Shown one piece after another: positions 1-9,024 of a DNA stretch of 64,000 bases. The notes below the pieces were generated by a model. The model was not told where the DNA came from. It was given only the letters and a program-made list of their open reading frames with translations, and did not search any database. Numbering within the stretch: the first letter of the stretch is position 1; every line of letters starts with the position of its first letter. The stretch is from Methylobacterium tardum (lineage in GTDB: Bacteria; Pseudomonadota; Alphaproteobacteria; Rhizobiales; Beijerinckiaceae), in NCBI RefSeq assembly GCF_023546765.1, contig NZ_CP097484.1:3690001-3754000 (forward strand), in the 5' to 3' direction. A program made the position numbers and the translations under genes.

Positions 1-1794
1 GGTGAGGGGCGTCACGCAGGATGGCCTGCGCCGCCTCGCCGCGCTGCTGCGGCACGCCCCCGGGCCGTTCGCCGCCCTGCCGGAGGGATGGACGCGGATC
101 CTGCCCCGCGAGGCCCCGCTTTCCGACCTCCCCGCCTGGGAGCGCCTGCTGGGCGGGGAGGGAGTGACCGGCCACTCGGAGGGTCCCGCGCTGGCCGCCG
201 GGCTTCGCGCGATCCTGGCGCTCCTGGCCGCCGGGACCGCGGGGGCCGCCCGGGCGGGGAGGCCCTGCTATCCGGGCTCGCGCTCCGGATCTGGCGGAAG
301 GCCTTGCTGGAGGGGGCGCCCGCCGTGGTCGACCTGACGCTGTCACGGCAGCGCATCGACGACGACGCCGACGCCGGCACGTCGGTGGTCTGGGTGCCGG
401 CGTCCTCCCTGGCGAGCGCCCCGCGGCGGTTCGTCCGGCTCCTCGGGCTGAGCTCGCGCGGCTGGCCGCAGGTGGCCACGGAGGACCGGCTGCTGTCGGA
501 CCATCTGGTCCCCTCGCACGTCCTGGATCCGCAGCCGCGCTCGGCCGTCGACCGGGGCGACTTCGACGCGATCCTCGCCACGAGCGCGGACGCCGTGGTG
601 CTGTCGCGGGCCCGCCGCGGCGCCGACGGCCGGCTCCTCGGCCGCAGCCCTCTTCTGCGCGACCACCCCGACGGCGCGCACCTCGGGAGGAACCGCGTCC
701 CCGAGCATGCCGCCGGCGAGGTCGACCGGCTCACGGCGCGGCCGGAGGAGTTCGCGTCCACGGCCCAGGCCCGGTCCGCCGCTTCCTGCTGGGCGTCGTG
801 GGCCTCCCACTCCCCGACGCCGCACGACGGCCTGGTCCGGCCCGACCACCCCGTCATCCTGTCGGTGCTGGGCCGGGTGCACTCCGCCAACTCCCTGCGC
901 AAGCTGCTGCGCGACCCCCTCGGTTTCGTGTGGCGCTACGGCCTCGGCCTCCAGGCCGCCGATTCCAGCCAGGAGACGCTGACGCTGGACGATCGCGCGT
1001 TCGGCAACCTCATGCACGAGGTGCTGGAGCTGGCGGTCATCGCCCTTGAGGCGGGGGACGGGGCCGCGTCGTCCGAGGCCGCGCGGCGGGCGGCACTGGA
1101 GGGCGCGGTCCGGGCCGTGGCCGACGCGTGGGAGCGCGGGCGGGCGATCCCGCCCGCGGTGGTCTGGCGCCGGGTCCTCGACGACGTGTCGGTCGCGTCG
1201 TGGAGCGCGCTCACGCACCCCGACGACGCCTACGAGGGGCAGTCCAGCTGGGTCGAGGTGCCGTTCGGCGGCCGGGGCCCCAAGCGGGCCGGGGGCGCCG
1301 TCCCGTGGGATCCGGACCTGCCCGTGGAGATCCCGGGGACGGGCTTCCGCATCTCCGGCTACATCGACCGCCTCGACCTCTCGGGGGACCGCGCCTCGGC
1401 CCGCGTCCGCGACTACAAGACCGGCAAGCCCCGCGGGTCCGACGACGTGCTGGCCGGAGGCCGGGAGCTGCAGCGCTGCATCTACGGCTACGCCGCCCGG
1501 GTCCTGCTCGGCGGCGACGTGGCCATAGACGCCTCGCTTCACTACCCGCGCGAGCGGACCTGCATCGCCCTCGAACGCCCCGACGCGGCGCTGGCCGACC
1601 TGGCCCGGCACCTCGCGGCGGCCGGGCGAAGCCTCGGGGCGGGCAACGCCTTGCCCGGACCCGACACCGAGGCCGGGTGGAACGACCTCGCCTTCGCGCT
1701 GCCGGCCAACGCCGGCGAGGTGTACTGCCCGCGCAAGCGGGCGTCGGCGACGGCGGCGCTCGGCGACGCCGCCCTGGTGTGGGAAGCGCCCTGA
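1..1794 (+). CDS. AddB-like PD-(D/E)XK nuclease/helicase-like protein (5' partial, frameshifted)
   Basis: The gene enters from the left edge. Its C-terminal third carries a RecB-type nuclease: the conserved His in FGNLMHEVLELA, an Asp in ISGYIDRLDL, and the DYKTGK motif, then a late cysteine in EVYCPRKR. Upstream text such as ADAVVLSRARRGADGR and a DRLTARPEEF stretch resembles the inactivated helicase part of AddB-like proteins. The stop overlaps the start of the downstream UvrD-type gene (ATGA), so the two are translationally coupled, as in addB-addA. Reading begins in the frame of position 2 and must move to the frame ending at 1794 near 257, where a G-run appears one base short; the joined reading is GAARAGEALLSGLALRIW. 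The family role is end resection or DNA degradation with the AddA partner. A defence role is inferred only from the neighbourhood. Confidence 0.72.
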   Translation, partial: GEGRHAGWPAPPRRAAAARPRAVRRPAGGMDADPAPRGPAFRPPRLGAPAGRGGSDRPLGGSRAGRRASRDPGAPGRRDRGGRPGGEALLSGLALRIWRKALLEGAPAVVDLTLSRQRIDDDADAGTSVVWVPASSLASAPRRFVRLLGLSSRGWPQVATEDRLLSDHLVPSHVLDPQPRSAVDRGDFDAILATSADAVVLSRARRGADGRLLGRSPLLRDHPDGAHLGRNRVPEHAAGEVDRLTARPEEFASTAQARSAASCWASWASHSPTPHDGLVRPDHPVILSVLGRVHSANSLRKLLRDPLGFVWRYGLGLQAADSSQETLTLDDRAFGNLMHEVLELAVIALEAGDGAASSEAARRAALEGAVRAVADAWERGRAIPPAVVWRRVLDDVSVASWSALTHPDDAYEGQSSWVEVPFGGRGPKRAGGAVPWDPDLPVEIPGTGFRISGYIDRLDLSGDRASARVRDYKTGKPRGSDDVLAGGRELQRCIYGYAARVLLGGDVAIDASLHYPRERTCIALERPDAALADLARHLAAAGRSLGAGNALPGPDTEAGWNDLAFALPANAGEVYCPRKRASATAALGDAALVWEAP

Positions 1795-4700
1795 TGACCG
1801 TGCACGACAGGGCCTTGGCGGACGCGGGGCAGCGCGCCCTGGCCATCGCGCGGCACGACCGCTCCATGCTCGCCGAGGCCGGCGCCGGCTCCGGGAAGAC
1901 GGCGGTCCTCTCCGGCCGGATCGCCATGATGCTGGCGTCCGGCGTCCCGCCGCGCGAGATCGCGGCGGTGACGTTCACGGAGCTCGCCGCGAGCGAGCTG
2001 CTGGAGCGGATCGGCGACGTCGTCCACCGCCTCCTCGCCGGGGAGGTCCCCGAGGAGTTGCGCTGCGTCCTGCCGCATGGCCTGACGCGGGAGCAGGAGG
2101 GGAGCCCGGCCGCCGCGCAGGGCCGGATCGACGAACTGGTGTGCACGACCATCCACGGGTTCTGCCAGCGGCTCGTGAAGCCGTACCCGGTCGAGGCCGA
2201 CATGGACCCCGGGGCGCGCGTCGCCGACGACGCCGAGGCCGACGGCCTGTTCCGCGACATCCTGGACGGCTGGCTGCGCGAGACGCTCGCGGGCGGCCGA
2301 TGCCTCGTGGCGGAGATGTTCCTCGCGGATCCCGTCGCCGCCGAGAAGGCGGTAGAGCGCGTCGCCGGCTGCCTGCGCGCGGGCCGCGCCGTGGGCCCGC
2401 CGCCCCCGGTGCCGTCGTCCCGCCTCGCCGAAGGCTTCGCCGAAAGCGTCGCGGCCTACGCCGCCTTCGTCGCGGCGTCGCCCGCCGAGGCCGAGACCGC
2501 GGCCGCCGCCGCGGCCTTCGGCGCGATGGCGTCCCGGACGCCGGCGCACGGCCCGGTCGGGGACGCGGAGCTCCTGGGCGTCCTGACGGCGAAGCCCGAC
2601 CCGGCGCTCTGCACGTCGAAGGGCGCGTTCGCGGCCTACAAGGGCGGGAAGGGCAAGTGGCAGGCCGCGGTCCGGAGCGCCGGGCTCCCGAAGGTCGAGG
2701 CGGACAGGCTCCATGCCGCGGCCAAGACGCTGCACGGGGATTGCTGCGCCGCGTGGGACGGCATGCGGGCGTCCGCGGCGAGCGAGCTCCTGGCCGTGCT
2801 CGTGCCCCGGGTCCGGACGGTCCTCGACCGCTACCGGGAGCGCAAGCGGGCCGGCGGCCTGCTCGACTTCGACGACCTCGCCGAGGCCGCGGTGCGCCTG
2901 CTCCGGGACCACGAGCCGGTCCGGCAGGCGCTGGGGCGGCGGCACCGGCACGTGCTGGTGGACGAGTTCCAGGACACCGACCCGCAGCAGGCGATGCTGT
3001 TCTGGCTGCTGTGCGGGGAACGGCCGGAGGGGGCGCCCGCCGACGACTGGACGGCGCGCGTGCTGCGGCCCGGCGCCCTGTTCCTCGTCGGCGACCCGAA
3101 GCAGGCGATCTACCGCTTCCGCGGCGCCGACGTCTCGACCTACGTCCGCGCCCGCGAGCGGATCCTGGCCCGCTCGCCCGACGACGTCGTGCCGATCTCC
3201 ACGAACTTCCGGTCCTGCCGGTCGATCCTCGCGTTCGTCCGACCGGTGCTTCCAGGACATCCTGGCCGGACCCGGCCAGCCCGGGTTCGCCCCCTCGCGG
3301 CGTTCCACGAGGACCACGACCGCGGCCCCTGCGTCGCCGCCCTCGACGTGCCCGGCCCGGCGGACGGGACCAAGCGCAAGGCGGGCGCCCTGCGGGACGC
3401 CGAGGCGGAGGCGGTCGCCGAACTCTGCGCCCGCCTGATCGGGACGCAGCTGGTCACGTGCAAGACCCACGGCACGCGGCCCCTCCGGCCCGGCGACATC
3501 GCCCTGCTGGCGCCGAGCGGGAGCGACCTGTGGCGCTACGAGGAGGCGCTGGAGGCCCGGGGCGTCCCCGTGTCGACGCAGGCCGGCAAGGGCTTCTTCC
3601 GTCGCCAGGAGGTCCAGGACCTCATCGCCCTGACCCGCGTCCTCGCCGACCCGCGCGACACCCTGGCGCTCGGCGCGTTCCTGCGCGGGCCGACCGTAGG
3701 CCTGACCGACGAGGAACTGCTGGACCTGGTCCACGGCCTGCCGCGCGACCCGGACCGGCCGGACGCCGTGCCGCCCCTGCGCCTCGGGATCGACGTGGCC
3801 GCCGTCGCGCACCCGGTCGCGCGCCCCGTCCTCGAACGCCTCCAGGCGTTGGCGCGGCAGGCGCTGGGGACCACGCCGTACGACATCCTCAGCCGGGCGG
3901 TCGACGCCGTCATGCTGAGGCCGGTCCTGGGCCGGCGTCACGACGGCCACGCCGAGCGCGCCCTGGCCAACGTCGACCTGTACCTTGAGATGTCCCGCCC
4001 GTACGCCGTGCGCGGACTGCGCGCGTTCGCCCGCGCGATGCAGGCCGCCTGGGACGGCCGGACCCGCGCGGTCGAGGGGCGTCCGGACGCCCAGGCCGAG
4101 GCCGTCTCCCTGTTCACCATGCACGCGTCGAAGGGCCTCGAATGGCCCGTGGTCATCCCGATCAACACCTCGACGCTCACGATCCCGGCGAGCGGCGCCT
4201 TGGTCGACCGCGCCTCGAACTGCCTCTACTGCCCGGTCTTCGGGGTGCGGCCGGCCGGCTACGACGCCGTCCTGGCCGCCGAGGACCGCGAGGTCGGGAA
4301 CGAGCGCGTGCGGCTCTGGTACGTGGCCGCGACCCGCGCGCGCGAGACCCTGGTGATCCCGCGGTTCCCCGACCCGGCCCACGACGACGCCTGGGCCTCG
4401 GTCGTCGGCCTGGGGCTGGACCGGCTGGCCGCCATCGACATGGACCGGCTTCCGGTCCCGGGCGCGAGGACCGGTCCCGCGGGTCGCAACGCCCAGACGC
4501 GCGAGAGTTTCGCGGAGGAGGCCGCGCGGGTGGCAGGCCACCGCCGGTTGAGATGGGTCGTGCCGAGCCGCCACGAGGGCGACGAGGCCGCGCCCGGCGG
4601 GGCCCTCGACATCGAGGCGCCCGACATCGAGGCGCCCGTCGCGCCGCCCGGCCTCGCGGCGGCCGTCCGCGGGAGCCGCGATCGCGGGCTGATCCTGCAC

Positions 4701-5206
4701 AAGCTCATCGAGGAGCTGCTGACCGGCGAGACCGACGAGGGCGGCGATCTCGCGCTCCGCGCTTCCCAGCTCGCGATGCAGCTCGCCGTCCGGGACGTGG
4801 ACCCCGACGAGGTGGCGGCCTGCGCGGCCCGGGCCTTGGCCGTGCCCGCCATCGCGGCCCTGCGCGCACGCCTCGTGCCGGAGCTGCCGGTGTACGCCTT
4901 GGAGGAACGCGACGGCGAGGACCACGCGACGGCCGGCATCGTCGACGCGATGGCCTACGACGAGTCCGGGCGGCCGGAGGTCGTCGTGGACTGGAAGAGC
5001 GACGTCGCGCCGACGGAGTCCGCGGTCGAGGGGTACCGGGGCCAAGTCCGGCGCTACATGGCCGCGACGGGCGCCGGCATCGGCCTGATCGTGTTTGCCA
5101 CGGACGGGCGGGTCGTTTCGGTAGCTCCCCCGGCGGGGCCCTGGCCGGGGCCGTACGTGAGGCGTGCCGCACCGAGGCTCCGCCGTCACTCGCCGGCGGC
5201 GCATGA
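1794..5206 (+). CDS. AddA-like UvrD-family helicase-nuclease (frame disruptions)
   Basis: A superfamily 1 helicase of about 1,130 residues, starting at the ATG that overlaps the upstream stop. Motifs in order: Walker A AEAGAGSGKT, TFTELAASEL, TIHGFCQRL, Walker B LVDEFQDTDPQQ, LVGDPKQAIYRFRGAD, STNFRS, TMHASKGLEWPVV and LWYVAATRARETL. A C-terminal RecB-type nuclease follows (GIVDAM, then VVDWKSD). With the preceding gene it forms a helicase plus two-nuclease AddAB-type pair. Three disruptions are seen. One extra C near 3238 and one missing C near 3295 compensate each other; the segment between reads DRCFQDILAGPGQPGFAP in the shifted frame. A third lies in a C-run near 5130: without it the frame runs on to 5504 as Arg/Pro-rich nonsense, while a shift gives a natural-looking end at 5206. 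It converges on the E1/E2/JAB operon. Confidence 0.75.
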
Positions 5207-5350: not shown

Positions 5351-5835
5351 CTACGGCGTCACCTCGTCGACGACCTCGACCCCGACGGGGGCGACGCCCT
5401 TGGCCGCCGGGCGCCGGGTGCCAGCCTCCAGGCTCCGGCGCGCCAACCGTCCGCCCCGCGGAACAGGATCATCATGGCCGGGTCGGGACAACCCAAGGGG
5501 GTGAAGCCAGCCAGCTTCGCCAGGGTCGCGACGTCCAACCGGCTCAACGCGGCGTCCGTGGCGTCCGGATGGGAATGCCAGTCCGCCAGGAACGCCACGT
5601 CGCCGCCACGGTCCGCGAGATCGCGGATCCGGCGATTCTGCCAGTCGTGGTCGACTTCGAGCCAGGTCCGGGCCCGGCGCGCGCCGGGCCCGGACCCGAT
5701 GACGTGGCGTACGAACCGGTCGCCGCGGCCGTCCCGCGATCCGAGCAGGATCCCGCCCTCCTCGTGCGGCAGGGCCGCGTCGGCCGCCGCGACGCAAAGT
5801 TCGAGAAGGCGTCGGGGGATGGCGAGACGGGTCAA
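5351..5835 (-). CDS. JAB/JAMM (Mov34/MPN) isopeptidase
   Basis: A small JAB-domain metalloprotease of about 160 residues. The N-terminal Glu lies in PHEEGGILLG, the zinc histidines in DWHSHPD, and the Ser and Asp in ALSRLD; the HxH-to-Ser spacing is one residue longer than the classical JAMM pattern. In bacterial ubiquitin-like operons such proteins process or remove the modifier. The likely start is a TTG whose last two bases begin the TGA of the E2-E1 gene, giving a 4-base overlap; this start is inferred. The last codons shift frame near 5408, after which the reading ends KGVAPVGVEVVDEVTP. It is the third gene of the operon. The enzyme family is secure; its substrate is unknown. Confidence 0.72.
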
Positions 5836-7553
5836 CCGCAGGCGCAGGCCGGATGGCGTTCGAATGGATCGAAGCGCCAGGCGGGCCTCCGGTCCTCGCC
5901 GACGAAGTTCAATGTCTCGACGAACGACGTCGCCGGCGCCGCGCGGAGGGTTCGGACCGCGACGCGCACCGCGTGCATCGACAGCTCGCCCAGGTCGTGC
6001 GAGGCTCCGGAGAAGGTCGCGTCGGCGCAACCGGGCAACCGAACCGCGTGCGCGTCCCCCCGCTCGCCGGACGGCCGCGCGATGGCGCCGGACCCGTATT
6101 GGTGGAGCAGGCAGTTCGGGCAGCCACCCCCGGGCGCGAAACATGCCACGACGCCGCCGGTGAACGCCGCCGTGCCGTAGGCGGAAATCAGCGGCGCACC
6201 CATGCTCCCGGCATGTCGGGCGAGGAGCCGCTCGACCTCGAACGAGGTGCTGCAGTCGGCGACGAGATCGGCCTGGTTGAGGGCGGCGACGAACTCGCCC
6301 CCCTCCCCCTCGGCCGTCCGGAAGTCGAGGTTGCCGATCGGCATTCGGGCGACCGCCGTCCGCGTGGCCGCATGGTTGGCCGCGATGAAGTCGGCGAGGG
6401 CGTCGACCTTGAAGCGTCCCCATGCCGACTCGCCGAGCGGCCAGCGCACGGCATTGCCCGGCGTGACGATGTCCAAGTCGGCCATCGCGATCGAACGCGC
6501 CCCGTTGCGCGCTAGGTCGAGGGCGACCGGGGCGCCGACGGCGCCGAGGCCGACGATCGCGATCCGCTTCCCCGCGATGACGCCTGCGGACGGGGAGCGT
6601 GAGCGGCGGTCGTCCAACCCCGCCCGCAACGTCCGGGCCGTGCCGGAATGGATCTGGTCCGCGCGGCCGTGCTCGAACGCCCGCCGGCTGCCCGTGCGGA
6701 CCAGGAGGATCCAGGACAGGCCGCGCTCGCCGTGCGTGATCTCGGTCCTGCACGCCACGGCCGCGATGCGGGCGCGCAGACTGTCGGCGAGCGGGATCAG
6801 CCCTGTCGTGCCGGTGCCGGGCGACACGGCGCCGAACACGCGTTCGTATTCGTCCGGCTGGGGTTCCTCGTCGAGCAGTCGCCACGGGACACGGATCGAA
6901 CGCGCTGCGGAGAACTCCAGGGGAAGCGGACCGGCGTTCCGGGCGATCTCGCCGCCGCCGCCGTCCAGGACCCCTTCCACGAACGCTCGCAGCGCGGGGG
7001 CGGCCGGGCACCACCCCGACCCGCAAGGCCAACGTGCCGCAGGTATGGGTGCCCAATTCCCATCCCGACTCGATCACGAAGGCCGAGCCCGGCACGGCGA
7101 GCGCCGCCCACCAATCCTCCATGGGCTCGGCCACCGGCTCGCCGTCGGGGGTGCCGTCCAGGATCATCGGCAGCCGATCCTCGATGTAGGATGCGACCGA
7201 CGTCTCCGGCTGCCGGCATGCCGGTCGTGCGCCAGGAAACAGAGGTTGCCGTTCACCGGGTTGCAGTGGTTGCGCGGGCGATCCTCGACCCGCAGCATCC
7301 GGATCTCGGGTCGCGTCAGGGGAAAGCCGGGCGGGTAGATGATCGCCAGCGGAAGCGTGCGGCCCCGATGGTCCCACTCGTATCGGACGACCAGGAATCC
7401 GGGCGGCGCGGTCTCGCGGCCGGCGCCGGTCACGCGCCCCCGCTCGCGCAGCCGGGCGAGCTCCCAGGTGAAACGGTCCGGCCAGGCCGCCCCGCACGGC
7501 GTGTCGCCGCCGACGGGGCCGCCCGACCGGGCCATGGGAGCCGGCACGCTCAT
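5832..7553 (-). CDS. E2-E1 fusion (ubiquitin-conjugating-like plus ThiF adenylation domain)
   Basis: About 574 codons. The N-terminal part (residues 10-115) is E2-like: WELARLRERG, IIYPPGFPLTRPEIR, then HCNPVNGNLCFL, where the Cys after NL occupies the E2 catalytic position. The C-terminal half is a ThiF/E1 domain: IVGLGAVGAPVALDL nucleotide loop, the Arg of NAVRWPLG, ADCSTSFEVERLL, and a CPNC pair in FAPGGGCPNC that probably binds zinc. This domain order matches Cap2-type E2-E1 fusions of CBASS and related bacterial ubiquitination-like operons. The ATG overlaps the upstream stop (ATGA). E2 and E1 lie in the same frame, but the linker is shifted between about 7217 (one base missing) and 7013 (one G extra). 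The repaired text reads HAWQPETSVASYIEDRLP and RVGWCPAAPALRAFVEG. Strong by motifs; its cognate modifier is not identified. Confidence 0.75.
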
Positions 7554-7912
7554 CCGACGCGACGCGGGGGGACCACCGGCGGGTTCCCGGGGCCGGGCGC
7601 GGGGGGAGCGGCCGGCGGCACGGGCTGACCGCCATGGGCGGGCGGGCAATCGCCGCCGTTCAGGGCATCGCGAATGTCGCGGTCGTCCTCGGCGATCCGC
7701 CGCTCGTCGGCGGCGATCGCCGCGTGCGCCTTCGTGGCGGCGTCCTCCTGGATGACGCGACGGCGCGCGAGCTCGGCCATCTCGGCGTCGATCCGCGCCG
7801 TCTCCGAACGGGCGTCCAACTCGATCGCGCGCTGCCGCTCGATGTCGGTCGCCGCCTCGACGATGTCCGCCGCATCGTGCTGGATCCGATCCTGCTTGTT
7901 TCCGTCCTGCAT
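7550..7912 (-). CDS. small helical charged protein with Pro-rich tail, first gene of the E2-E1/JAB operon
   Basis: 120 residues. The ATG is preceded by a good AAAGGAG six bases upstream. Residues 5-85 are Ala/Glu/Arg/Asp-rich and predicted helical or coiled coil (IERQRAIELDARSETARID, AAIAADERRIAEDDRDIRD). The last 35 residues are Pro/Gly-rich and end PPVVPPRRVG. The stop overlaps the E2-E1 start (ATGA), so it is co-translated with the conjugation enzymes. I do not recognise a family. It lacks the beta-grasp pattern and the Gly-Gly end of ubiquitin-like proteins, although it holds the operon position often taken by the modifier. It could be a substrate, an adaptor or a diverged modifier. Confidence 0.65.
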   Translation of the reverse strand: MQDGNKQDRIQHDAADIVEAATDIERQRAIELDARSETARIDAEMAELARRRVIQEDAATKAHAAIAADERRIAEDDRDIRDALNGGDCPPAHGGQPVPPAAPPAPGPGNPPVVPPRRVG

Positions 7913-8034
7913 CGCCGCTCCTTTCGCCTCGCCGCCTGTGTCACCTATGTCCGGATGACGCCGCCTCGCGCCGGTCGCCGGCATCCTTCCGTCGGTCGCC
8001 GCGCGAGAATCGGCGACCCGTCTAGTCCATAGAT

Positions 8035-8053
8035 GGGTATTGTTGCTATACCC
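8035..8053. promoter_or_regulatory. palindromic operator candidate between E1/E2 operon and WYL regulator
   Basis: GGGTAT and ATACCC form an inverted repeat with a 7-base spacer, in the short divergent intergenic region 24 bases upstream of the WYL gene start. WYL regulators of defence operons (CapW, BrxR) bind palindromes placed like this and repress both themselves and the operon. Binding is inferred. Confidence 0.5.
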
Positions 8054-8076
8054 GTCAAGTGAGCGGAGGGGTAGAC

Positions 8077-9024
8077 ATGGCCGAGCCGGAGCGGCGCGTC
8101 TGGGCGAGGAACGTCCGATACGAGTTCATGGAATGGAAGCTGTTCTGGGAAGGGCAGCTCAACCGCAGCGACCTGGAGGCGGCCTTCGACATCTCGACGC
8201 CGCAGGCCTCGGTCGACCTCAAGAATTACCGCGGCCTGGCGGAGGGCAACGTCGAGTACGACTCCACGGCGAAGTCGTTCGTGCCCGGCGCCGCGATCCG
8301 GCCCCGGTTCCTCGTGCCGTCGGCGGACAGGCTCCTGCTGCAGCTCCGGGCGCTGATGTCCGGGGCCCTCCCCCGGGACGTCGTGTGGTTCAAGACCTTG
8401 CCGGCGATCGACATGGCGCCGGACGTCGCGAGGCACGTGGATCCGGAGTGCCTCCGGCTGATCCTCGGCGCGATGCGGTCGCGCAGCGCCCTGCGGATCC
8501 GCTACCAGTCGCTGACGAACTCGCGTTGGCGGGTCATCGCGCCGCACGCGCTCGCCTTCGACGGTGCGCGGTGGCACGTGCGCGCCTGGGCTTGCGACCA
8601 CAAGGATTTCCGGGACTTCGTCCTGAGCCGGATCGACGAGTTCGGGGGGGCGGAGGCCGCCAGCTACGAGCCCGCCGACGACGTCGAGTGGCACACGACG
8701 ATCACCTTGAGGGTGCTGCCGCATCCCGGGCTGACGGACGACCAGCGCCGGGCGATCGAGCGCGACTACGGGATGGTCGACGGCGCCAGGGAGGTGGAGG
8801 TGCGTCTGTCGATGGCCTTCTACTTCATCAAGCGCCACAACCTGGACCTGATCGACCTGCCGCCGGAGCGGGTCCAGTTGCGCCTGGAAAACCTCGCCGA
8901 GGTCGGCCTGCGGGTCGCCGCGGCGAAGGAGGAGACCCGCAGGCGGGTCATCCCGTCCGGCGGCGGCGGTCCCGCAGACGGTTTGAGCCATGCCGCGGAC
9001 CCGTGGGATTCAAGCCCGGCATGA
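8077..9024 (+). CDS. WYL-domain transcriptional regulator (CapW/BrxR-like)
   Basis: 315 residues. The ATG was preferred over an upstream GTG at 8059 because GGAGGGG sits six bases before it. An N-terminal winged helix-turn-helix (residues 1-75) contains LNRSDLEAAFDISTPQASVD. A WYL domain (about 130-200) contains LRIRYQSLTN, WRVIAPHALAFDGARWHVRAW and FRDFVLSRIDEF. A C-terminal WCX-like segment follows. Regulators of this architecture control CBASS, BREX and other defence operons by derepression during infection. It is divergent from the E2-E1/JAB operon and close to the palindrome, which supports local control. Confidence 0.82.
   Translation: MAEPERRVWARNVRYEFMEWKLFWEGQLNRSDLEAAFDISTPQASVDLKNYRGLAEGNVEYDSTAKSFVPGAAIRPRFLVPSADRLLLQLRALMSGALPRDVVWFKTLPAIDMAPDVARHVDPECLRLILGAMRSRSALRIRYQSLTNSRWRVIAPHALAFDGARWHVRAWACDHKDFRDFVLSRIDEFGGAEAASYEPADDVEWHTTITLRVLPHPGLTDDQRRAIERDYGMVDGAREVEVRLSMAFYFIKRHNLDLIDLPPERVQLRLENLAEVGLRVAAAKEETRRRVIPSGGGGPADGLSHAADPWDSSPA

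Follow-up and report, generated by a model that had tools for sequence, protein, structure and literature searches.

How does a bacterial operon for ubiquitin-like conjugation operate when it appears to lack anything for its enzymes to conjugate? The question is raised by a locus of Methylobacterium tardum, at positions 5352-9024 of a stretch of 64,000 nucleotides (‘the window’: positions 3,690,001 to 3,754,000 of contig NZ_CP097484.1). Four genes are found there: three on the minus strand, encoding a small protein, a fusion of an E2 (conjugating) with an E1 (activating) enzyme and a JAB isopeptidase, and one divergent gene on the plus strand that encodes a WYL-domain regulator. A first-pass annotation, made from the letters of the window, remarked that neither a beta-grasp modifier nor a cyclase (CD-NTase) of the cyclic oligonucleotide-based antiphage signalling system (CBASS) could be seen, and suggested a distinct defence variant in which the small protein would be the modifier or the target. 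The comparisons described here favour the first of these roles, and we think it probable, from the sequences involved, that the locus is a defence operon under the control of the repressor CapW, which conjugates a modifier without a beta-grasp fold, and that the JAB enzyme removes that modifier again.

A small protein with a conserved C-terminal tail

The gene for the small protein (positions 7550..7912, minus strand) is preceded by AAAGGAG, and its stop codon is overlapped by the ATG of the E2-E1 gene as ATGA. The protein comprises 120 residues, and its AlphaFold model displays a single helix (residues 2-86), in keeping with its earlier description as helical, followed by a low-confidence, proline-rich, disordered tail that ends GNPPVVPPRRVG-COOH. 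The model contains no strands, and no Pfam ubiquitin-like (Ubl) family was matched by the window protein or by eight relatives; a hidden beta-grasp Ubl was rejected on the basis of that strandless model and of Pfam, so that the earlier remark on the missing modifier still stands. A protein search recovered three relatives besides the window's own entry (P0001), and the C-terminal ten residues, PPVVPPRRVG, are identical in all four sequences, window included, with a variable linker before them. This conserved tail, absent from the first-pass annotation, is the key feature of the protein. Several other matches were set aside as chance, namely those of the helical protein across the class (in 16 of 385 genomes besides the own one, with E-values from 7e-4 to 0.009), those of the helical relative P0003 in the PDB (the designed filaments 8UBG at 1.9e-5 and 8UB3 at 0.23, and 9HY4 at 0.097), and three sub-threshold Pfam matches.

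Fifteen further loci, 14 on plasmids of six genera (Sinorhizobium, Sphingobium, Hymenobacter, Indioceanicola, Arthrobacter and Iamia) and one in genome G586 (L107), carry a small proline-rich open reading frame (ORF) immediately before a related E2-E1 gene. In these 15 of the 16 loci the protein is reduced to a proline-rich peptide of 44-59 residues, to which the Methylobacterium type adds the 86-residue helix; no Pfam match was returned for the two short peptides that were searched. The peptides end (K/R/H)xVG, with one residue more in L107 (VGR) and two more in L046 (VGQQ), and a GGAG sequence stands just 5' of the start codon in 14 of the 16 loci. Proline-rich ORFs ending [RHK]xVG, with zero to two residues beyond, occur 16 times among the 2254 ORFs of the 16 loci, each directly before E2-E1, and are absent from the 6313 ORFs of 121 control loci (many of them short, at about 3.4 kb, and some overlapping). 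The PLSDB gene tables, which are incomplete, list the peptide gene at only 1 of the 14 plasmid loci; its omission from the other 13, two of them on pNGR234a, may explain why such operons have the look of ‘enzymes without a ubiquitin’.

The 16 loci yield 12 distinct peptides: L118 shares its peptide with L045, L120 with L042, L121 with L044 and L122 with L043, and that of L119 differs by one residue from that of L042. (The L045 peptide was taken from separate ORF scans, the locus script having been anchored there on the E1 half.) Between the peptide genes of Sinorhizobium americanum and S. meliloti (L042/L044) the proportion of synonymous differences (pS) is 0.629 and that of nonsynonymous differences (pN) 0.058, and between those of Sphingobium and the second NGR234 copy (L043/L118) the values are 0.701 and 0.137. 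Since pS far exceeds pN in both pairs, the peptide is a constrained, protein-coding gene, under strong purifying selection. A profile of ten short peptides retrieved 17 proteins at E<=10 (the best at 6e-5, and seven under 0.05), and all 17 end V(G/A), 15 with Gly and two with Ala. One of them, P0023, displays a charged N-terminus that, by eye, resembles a helix, ahead of the same tail, and thereby links the short peptides to the helical type of Methylobacterium.

The gene slot before E2-E1

In a maximum-likelihood tree of E1 sequences, all 20 E2-E1 rows of the clade group together with support of 100/100, apart from 26 other E1 rows. (The tree omits L045 and L049, whose E2-E1 is split, the copies L120-L122, and P0014 and P0016-P0018; it warns of long branches at L006, L097 and L125.) The sequences thus place these proteins in a clade of their own, related to the Cap2 enzyme of CBASS. 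When the gene slot before E2-E1 was compared across 31 loci (16 of this clade and 15 of its sister group), the slot was found to hold the small proline-rich gene in every one of the 16 clade loci, and a CBASS cyclase in 13 of the 15 sister loci (ten of ten examined with hidden Markov models, and three on plasmids identified by their annotation as nucleotidyltransferases). The remaining two are a locus with an annotated metallo-beta-lactamase (MBL) protein (L125) and one without a partner (L127). The sister cyclases end, in 12 of 13 cases, with Ala (11) or Gly (one), as in KPxGFA or GGRYA.

That regularity has a biochemical precedent. The terminal Gly of cGAS becomes linked to Cap2 as a thioester, and Ala can partly replace it; across 1,583 aligned cGAS proteins, which have no beta-grasp fold, the last residue is highly conserved as one or the other (PMC10097602); a second study gives the same Ala/Gly rule (PMC11153139), and the titles of PDB entries 7TSQ and 7TSX describe Cap2 bound to the C-terminus of CdnD02. 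It is this position of a Gly-ending tail, in the slot of the Gly/Ala-ending substrates of Cap2, that leads us to read the small protein as a modifier. Ordinary CBASS was rejected as a description of the window operon, which lies in the separate clade and holds a different gene in the slot; no CD-NTase was seen in the operon, and the whole genome returned no match to PF18144 (SMODS) or PF18134 (AGS_C), the DncV-type model PF21654 not having been run genome-wide. To that extent the earlier remark on the absent cyclase holds as well.

The E2-E1 and JAB enzymes

The E2-E1 fusion (positions 5832..7553, minus strand) is 574 amino acids long where intact, and the JAB (JAMM) isopeptidase gene (about 5352..5890, minus strand; its exact start is uncertain) overlaps the end of the E1. 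In the window assembly the fusion is read in three frames (the E2 from 7553 to ~7215, a middle part from ~7215 to ~7000, and the E1 from ~7000 to 5832), and the C-terminal end of the JAB gene is broken once. Methylobacterium sp. 2A (L022), with 99.9% identity at the locus, has a single E2-E1 frame of 574 amino acids, and over 69 kb the window genome is 99.9% identical to G1304 (probably the same genome as sp. 2A) in an alignment that opens 20 gaps, so that gene frames across the window assembly are unreliable. Because the near-identical genome is intact and the gaps are so frequent, the breaks look like assembly errors, and a pseudogene was rejected; they were left unmended, and the intact relative was used to analyse the E2-E1.

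Within the window, Pfam identified ThiF (2e-20), Prok-JAB (4e-10) and WYL (7e-13), and the E2 weakly (0.15); a profile of 18 E2-E1 relatives matched the E2 enzyme UBE2L3 firmly (2.5e-5, over positions 19-142) and Cap2 (7TO3) at 5e-21 over the E1 part. The operon of E2-E1 fusion, JAB and small protein that had been proposed at first is thus borne out, by these matches and by the ATGA overlap. The features of the fusion include Cys105 and His96 in the E2, and GxGxxG, Cys510 and the zinc cysteines in the E1. Thirteen of 14 examined positions (His96 and Cys105, the E1 nucleotide loop, an Arg, a Lys and an Asp, Cys510, and cysteines 479, 482 and 571) are the same in every one of 18 rows, and Cys573 is present in 16 of 18. 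The five JAMM positions of the JAB enzyme (E, HxH, S and D) are likewise identical in eight of eight rows; for all of these residues we assume the catalytic roles familiar from their families. A fusion of E2 to E1, with a predicted catalytic cysteine in each domain, is also among the features of type II CBASS. Immediately after E2-E1, each of the 16 clade loci has a JAB frame (split in two in L042 and L049), and the order of small proline-rich gene, E2-E1 and JAB, which the first-pass annotation suggested searching for, therefore recurs throughout. Split or broken genes were noted for JAB in L042 and L049 and for E2-E1 in L045 and L049, and the JAB frames of L118, L045 and L048 are absent from the gene table.

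The first Foldseek match of the AlphaFold model of the E2-E1 protein is Cap2 (7TO3, 1.4e-18), aligned over nearly its whole length. Superposed in full on Cap2, the model (pLDDT 73.5) displays a root-mean-square deviation of 24 A over 409 residues, which we attribute to the unsure placement of its domains; in superposition the E1 domain alone is firmly matched. By PADLOC and NCBIfam the enzymes fall near the CBASS E1-E2, Cap3 and 6A-MBL families. The NCBIfam scores stay well short of the curated thresholds, with one exception: the NGR234 JAB exceeds the threshold of the ICE_VC0181 family (210 bits, against 127.6). For the Cap3 model NF050170 (cut-off 200) the window JAB scores 24.5 bits and the NGR234 JAB 46.3, and for the 6A-MBL cap2_3 equivalog (cut-off 320) four E2-E1 proteins score 65.8-90.4 bits.

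Proposed mechanism and alternative explanations

Taken together, these features suggest the following sequence of events. The (R)xVG tail of the small protein would enter the E1 active site and be adenylated; the protein would then be handed, as a thioester, to Cys510 of the E1 and on to Cys105 of the E2 within the same polypeptide, and its terminal Gly would be joined to amines on target proteins. The JAB enzyme would take it off those targets, and would probably also mature the peptides with residues after the Gly (VGR and VGQQ, at two loci). CapW would keep the operon silent, releasing it on phage attack or DNA damage, and the induced system would protect against phage. The wider claim, which we hold with rather less assurance although we lean towards it, is that the E1-E2-JAB clade as a whole acts on stand-alone, disordered, proline-rich peptides, recognized by nothing more than a short tail of the type PPxxRxV(G/A) and free to acquire different N-terminal bodies (a coiled coil, or none at all). 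Such a foldless modifier would lie outside the beta-grasp family and serve in bacterial immunity. If so, the chemistry of E1 and E2 would be uncoupled from the fold of ubiquitin, a peptide tag that needs just a very short tail for its recognition would be gained, and three small genes would suffice for a test of the idea. As between the two roles first suggested for the small protein, the tail found in the same slot at 16 of 16 loci, together with the precedent of Cap2, would argue for modifier rather than target.

A number of observations weigh against this account. The tail pattern was written after the clade loci had been seen, and the controls of the scan exclude nine loci whose stretches duplicate those of the clade (L001, L023, L050, L051, L135, L136, L137, L141 and L146). 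The matches to the peptide profile are weak (6e-5 to 3), involve sequences of low complexity and were obtained with the tail included in the profile, and P0029 and P0036 lack the tail Arg. The Gly is not terminal in two peptides (an Arg follows it in L107 and two Gln in L046), for which trimming would be needed. Among the sister loci, the cyclase of L111 ends GFGGI, the MBL protein ends MGGQ, and L127, the fifteenth, has neither a partner nor a JAB. An opposite-strand nucleotidyltransferase gene (3278-3949) is listed in L121, ~0.9 kb before the peptide. VIA-align places single E1 domains (UBA5, ThiF and MoeB) ahead of Cap2. CapW is found near 1 of the 16 clade loci (that of Methylobacterium), against 3 of the 15 sister loci (L113, L115 and L124), and its control cannot be general to the clade. 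To these may be added the rarity of the system, and a non-ribosomal peptide synthetase (NRPS) cluster that adjoins three Sinorhizobium plasmid loci (L042, L119 and L120).

Several of these points feed other explanations. The small protein might instead be a signalling or effector component, activated by being joined to a scaffold, a membrane protein or a lipid, as cGAS is in CBASS, with its coiled coil serving to oligomerize it; the slot does hold an enzyme (the cyclase) rather than a tag in 13 sister loci, and the Methylobacterium type has a conserved helical N-terminus. We regard this as unlikely, given that 15 of the 16 loci offer only a proline-rich peptide of 44-59 residues, with little to act as an enzyme. 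That short peptide could in turn be the precursor of a natural product, its C-terminus adenylated by the E1 toward a compound like microcin C: MccB, an E1-like enzyme that acts on a short peptide, is among the fold matches, and the three Sinorhizobium loci are closely preceded by genes for an NRPS, a MATE transporter and a phosphopantetheinyl transferase. Against such a pathway stand an E2 with an invariant Cys and a JAB frame in 16 of 16 loci, and for the remaining 11 plasmid loci the (incomplete) gene tables show no such cluster, which makes this explanation very improbable.

The conserved E2 Cys also speaks against a sulfur carrier, in which, as with ThiS or MoaD, the C-terminus of the peptide would carry a thiocarboxylate. 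The resemblance of the E1 to ThiF and MoeB, and the association of JAB proteins with some sulfur carriers (Iyer et al. 2006, PMC1779556), are in its favour, but the (incomplete) tables of the 14 plasmid loci contain no gene for sulfur transfer, a rhodanese or a cysteine synthase, and we give this explanation very little credence. Finally, the closeness of the enzymes to Cap2 and Cap3-type proteins, and the split or broken copies in L042, L045 and L049, might point to a decayed type II CBASS that has lost its cyclase and beside which the small ORF is incidental; a separate deep clade, a tail conserved in 16 loci and strong purifying selection have already largely refuted this, and it scarcely merits belief.

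Regulator and defence-island context

The regulator (positions 8059..9024, plus strand, with a likely start at ATG 8077, ~165 bp from the small protein gene) is CapW: it matches PDB entry 9C5G at 5.7e-125 (419.7 bits over 292 amino acids), which upholds its earlier description as a divergent CapW/BrxR-like WYL protein. Repressors of this kind silence immune operons, and the repression is lifted in response to single-stranded DNA or DNA damage (PMC13373217). Between the divergent starts lies a perfect palindrome, GGGTATtgttgctATACCC (8035..8053, not assigned to a strand), which is a candidate CapW operator; it occurs once in the 64 kb, as a pattern chosen after it had been seen, and was not picked up by the repeat finder. 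Nothing resembling a sigma-70 promoter was seen between 7900 and 8100.

At its other end the operon converges on a gene for a second, diverged AddA-like helicase-nuclease (1794..5204, plus strand), next to which are an AddB-like PD-(D/E)XK gene (2..1794, plus strand; frame-broken here and a single frame in G1304) and then, to the left, SngC, SngB and SngA of the Shango system (7e-252, 3e-173 and 2e-34 in that order, SngA having been scored on part of its length). The second AddA-like protein scores 253-259 bits against addA_alphas (cut-off 861), and the housekeeping AddA, encoded elsewhere, 1132 bits; the second protein, beside its AddB-like neighbour, may serve defence in association with Shango and not repair. 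In G1304 (G1304:C1:245516-252578, L141/L142, corresponding to sequence left of the window) the three Shango genes adjoin the AddAB-like pair and the Ubl-like operon, and GC content within the window is 0.73-0.77 over the initial 8 kb and 0.65-0.73 in the remainder. Shango, the AddAB-like pair and the Ubl-like operon form a compact, GC-rich defence island, and the adjoining CapW and Shango genes, with the 100/100 clade, support the notion of a distinct defence variant with which the annotation began. Also left of the window, an insertion of ~1.7 kb relative to G1304 (at ~3671749-3673408 of the window's own genome) falls within an ORF that resembles, by eye, an IS3-type transposase.

Distribution

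The system is rare. Genome scans, which scored few first-look candidates per genome and hence give lower bounds, found it in at least 2 of 111 Methylobacterium genomes (the window genome and a near-copy; 12 candidates per genome), in full length in at least 2 of 397 genomes of an order sample and at least 2 of 398 of a phylum sample (the same two), in at least 1 of 376 of a class sample (3 candidates per genome in all three samples), and in at least 1 of 149 genomes in the family of G586 (9 candidates). Its plasmid homes indicate that it is mobile. A phage-borne form was rejected: 29 stretches of viral contigs matched a pattern and none was confirmed, and no relative was found in phage records.

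The plasmid loci provide further observations. On the symbiosis plasmid pNGR234a the system is present twice, as distinct copies (L041 and L118) with different peptides. A RES-toxin/Xre-antitoxin pair lies divergent beside the peptide-E2-E1 genes in L043, L045, L118 and L122 (plasmids of Sphingobium and Sinorhizobium), and an MBL-fold gene is listed about 3 kb away in L043 and L122. In L042, L119 and L120 the NRPS, MATE transporter and phosphopantetheinyl transferase genes stand upstream of the whole peptide-E2-E1-JAB series.

Comparison with known systems

Operons of these enzymes were sorted into types 6a-6e by Iyer et al. (2006, PMC1779556), type 6b being defined with a polymerase-beta nucleotidyltransferase; the table of that paper enters NGR234a and an actinobacterial ‘Asp.’ under 6b, and these entries may be the same enzymes as the clade described here. 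No reference to the peptide was noticed in the passages of that paper that were consulted. Cap2 is called the only known such system to act on a protein without a beta-grasp fold in a 2025 review (PMC12355090), and among titles and the beginnings of abstracts (in a literature that included few subscription papers and to which preprints did not belong) no proline-rich or non-beta-grasp modifier was reported for such loci, CBASS cGAS papers aside.

Pup is a small protein tag, for the most part disordered and with a Gly region at its C-terminus, and in this it resembles the small protein of the window; it uses the ligase PafA, however, and not an E1, E2 and JAB. The ISG15-like Bil systems and Bub resemble the operon in combining an E1, an E2, a protease and a modifier, with immune regulators alongside. 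The modifiers of Bub are beta-grasp Ubls, whereas the modifier proposed here is strandless. The Bil enzymes, in addition, are separate proteins, and the Bil modifier is a beta-grasp Ubl (BilA, PMC11354881).

The 6A-MBL systems, which pair E2-E1-JAB with a partner of the metallo-beta-lactamase fold, possess homologous E1 and JAB domains, and L125 (of the MBL type by annotation) has its partner gene directly upstream, with an MGGQ end. They differ from the present clade, four of whose E2-E1 proteins reach 66-90 bits where 320 are required, whose JAB is encoded by a separate gene, and whose slot holds no MBL partner in 16 of 16 loci. The nearest parallel is type II CBASS, with its Cap2 and Cap3 (Iyer type 6b): there too an E2-E1 fusion is followed by a JAB, a substrate with a Gly/Ala C-terminal tail and no beta-grasp fold is encoded next to E2-E1, and CapW stands beside some of the loci (L113, L115 and L124). 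The clade described here departs from it in forming a separate branch with 100/100 support, in having JAB enzymes that score below the NCBIfam cut-off for Cap3, and in placing a stand-alone proline-rich protein, rather than a cyclase, in the slot before the E2-E1 gene.

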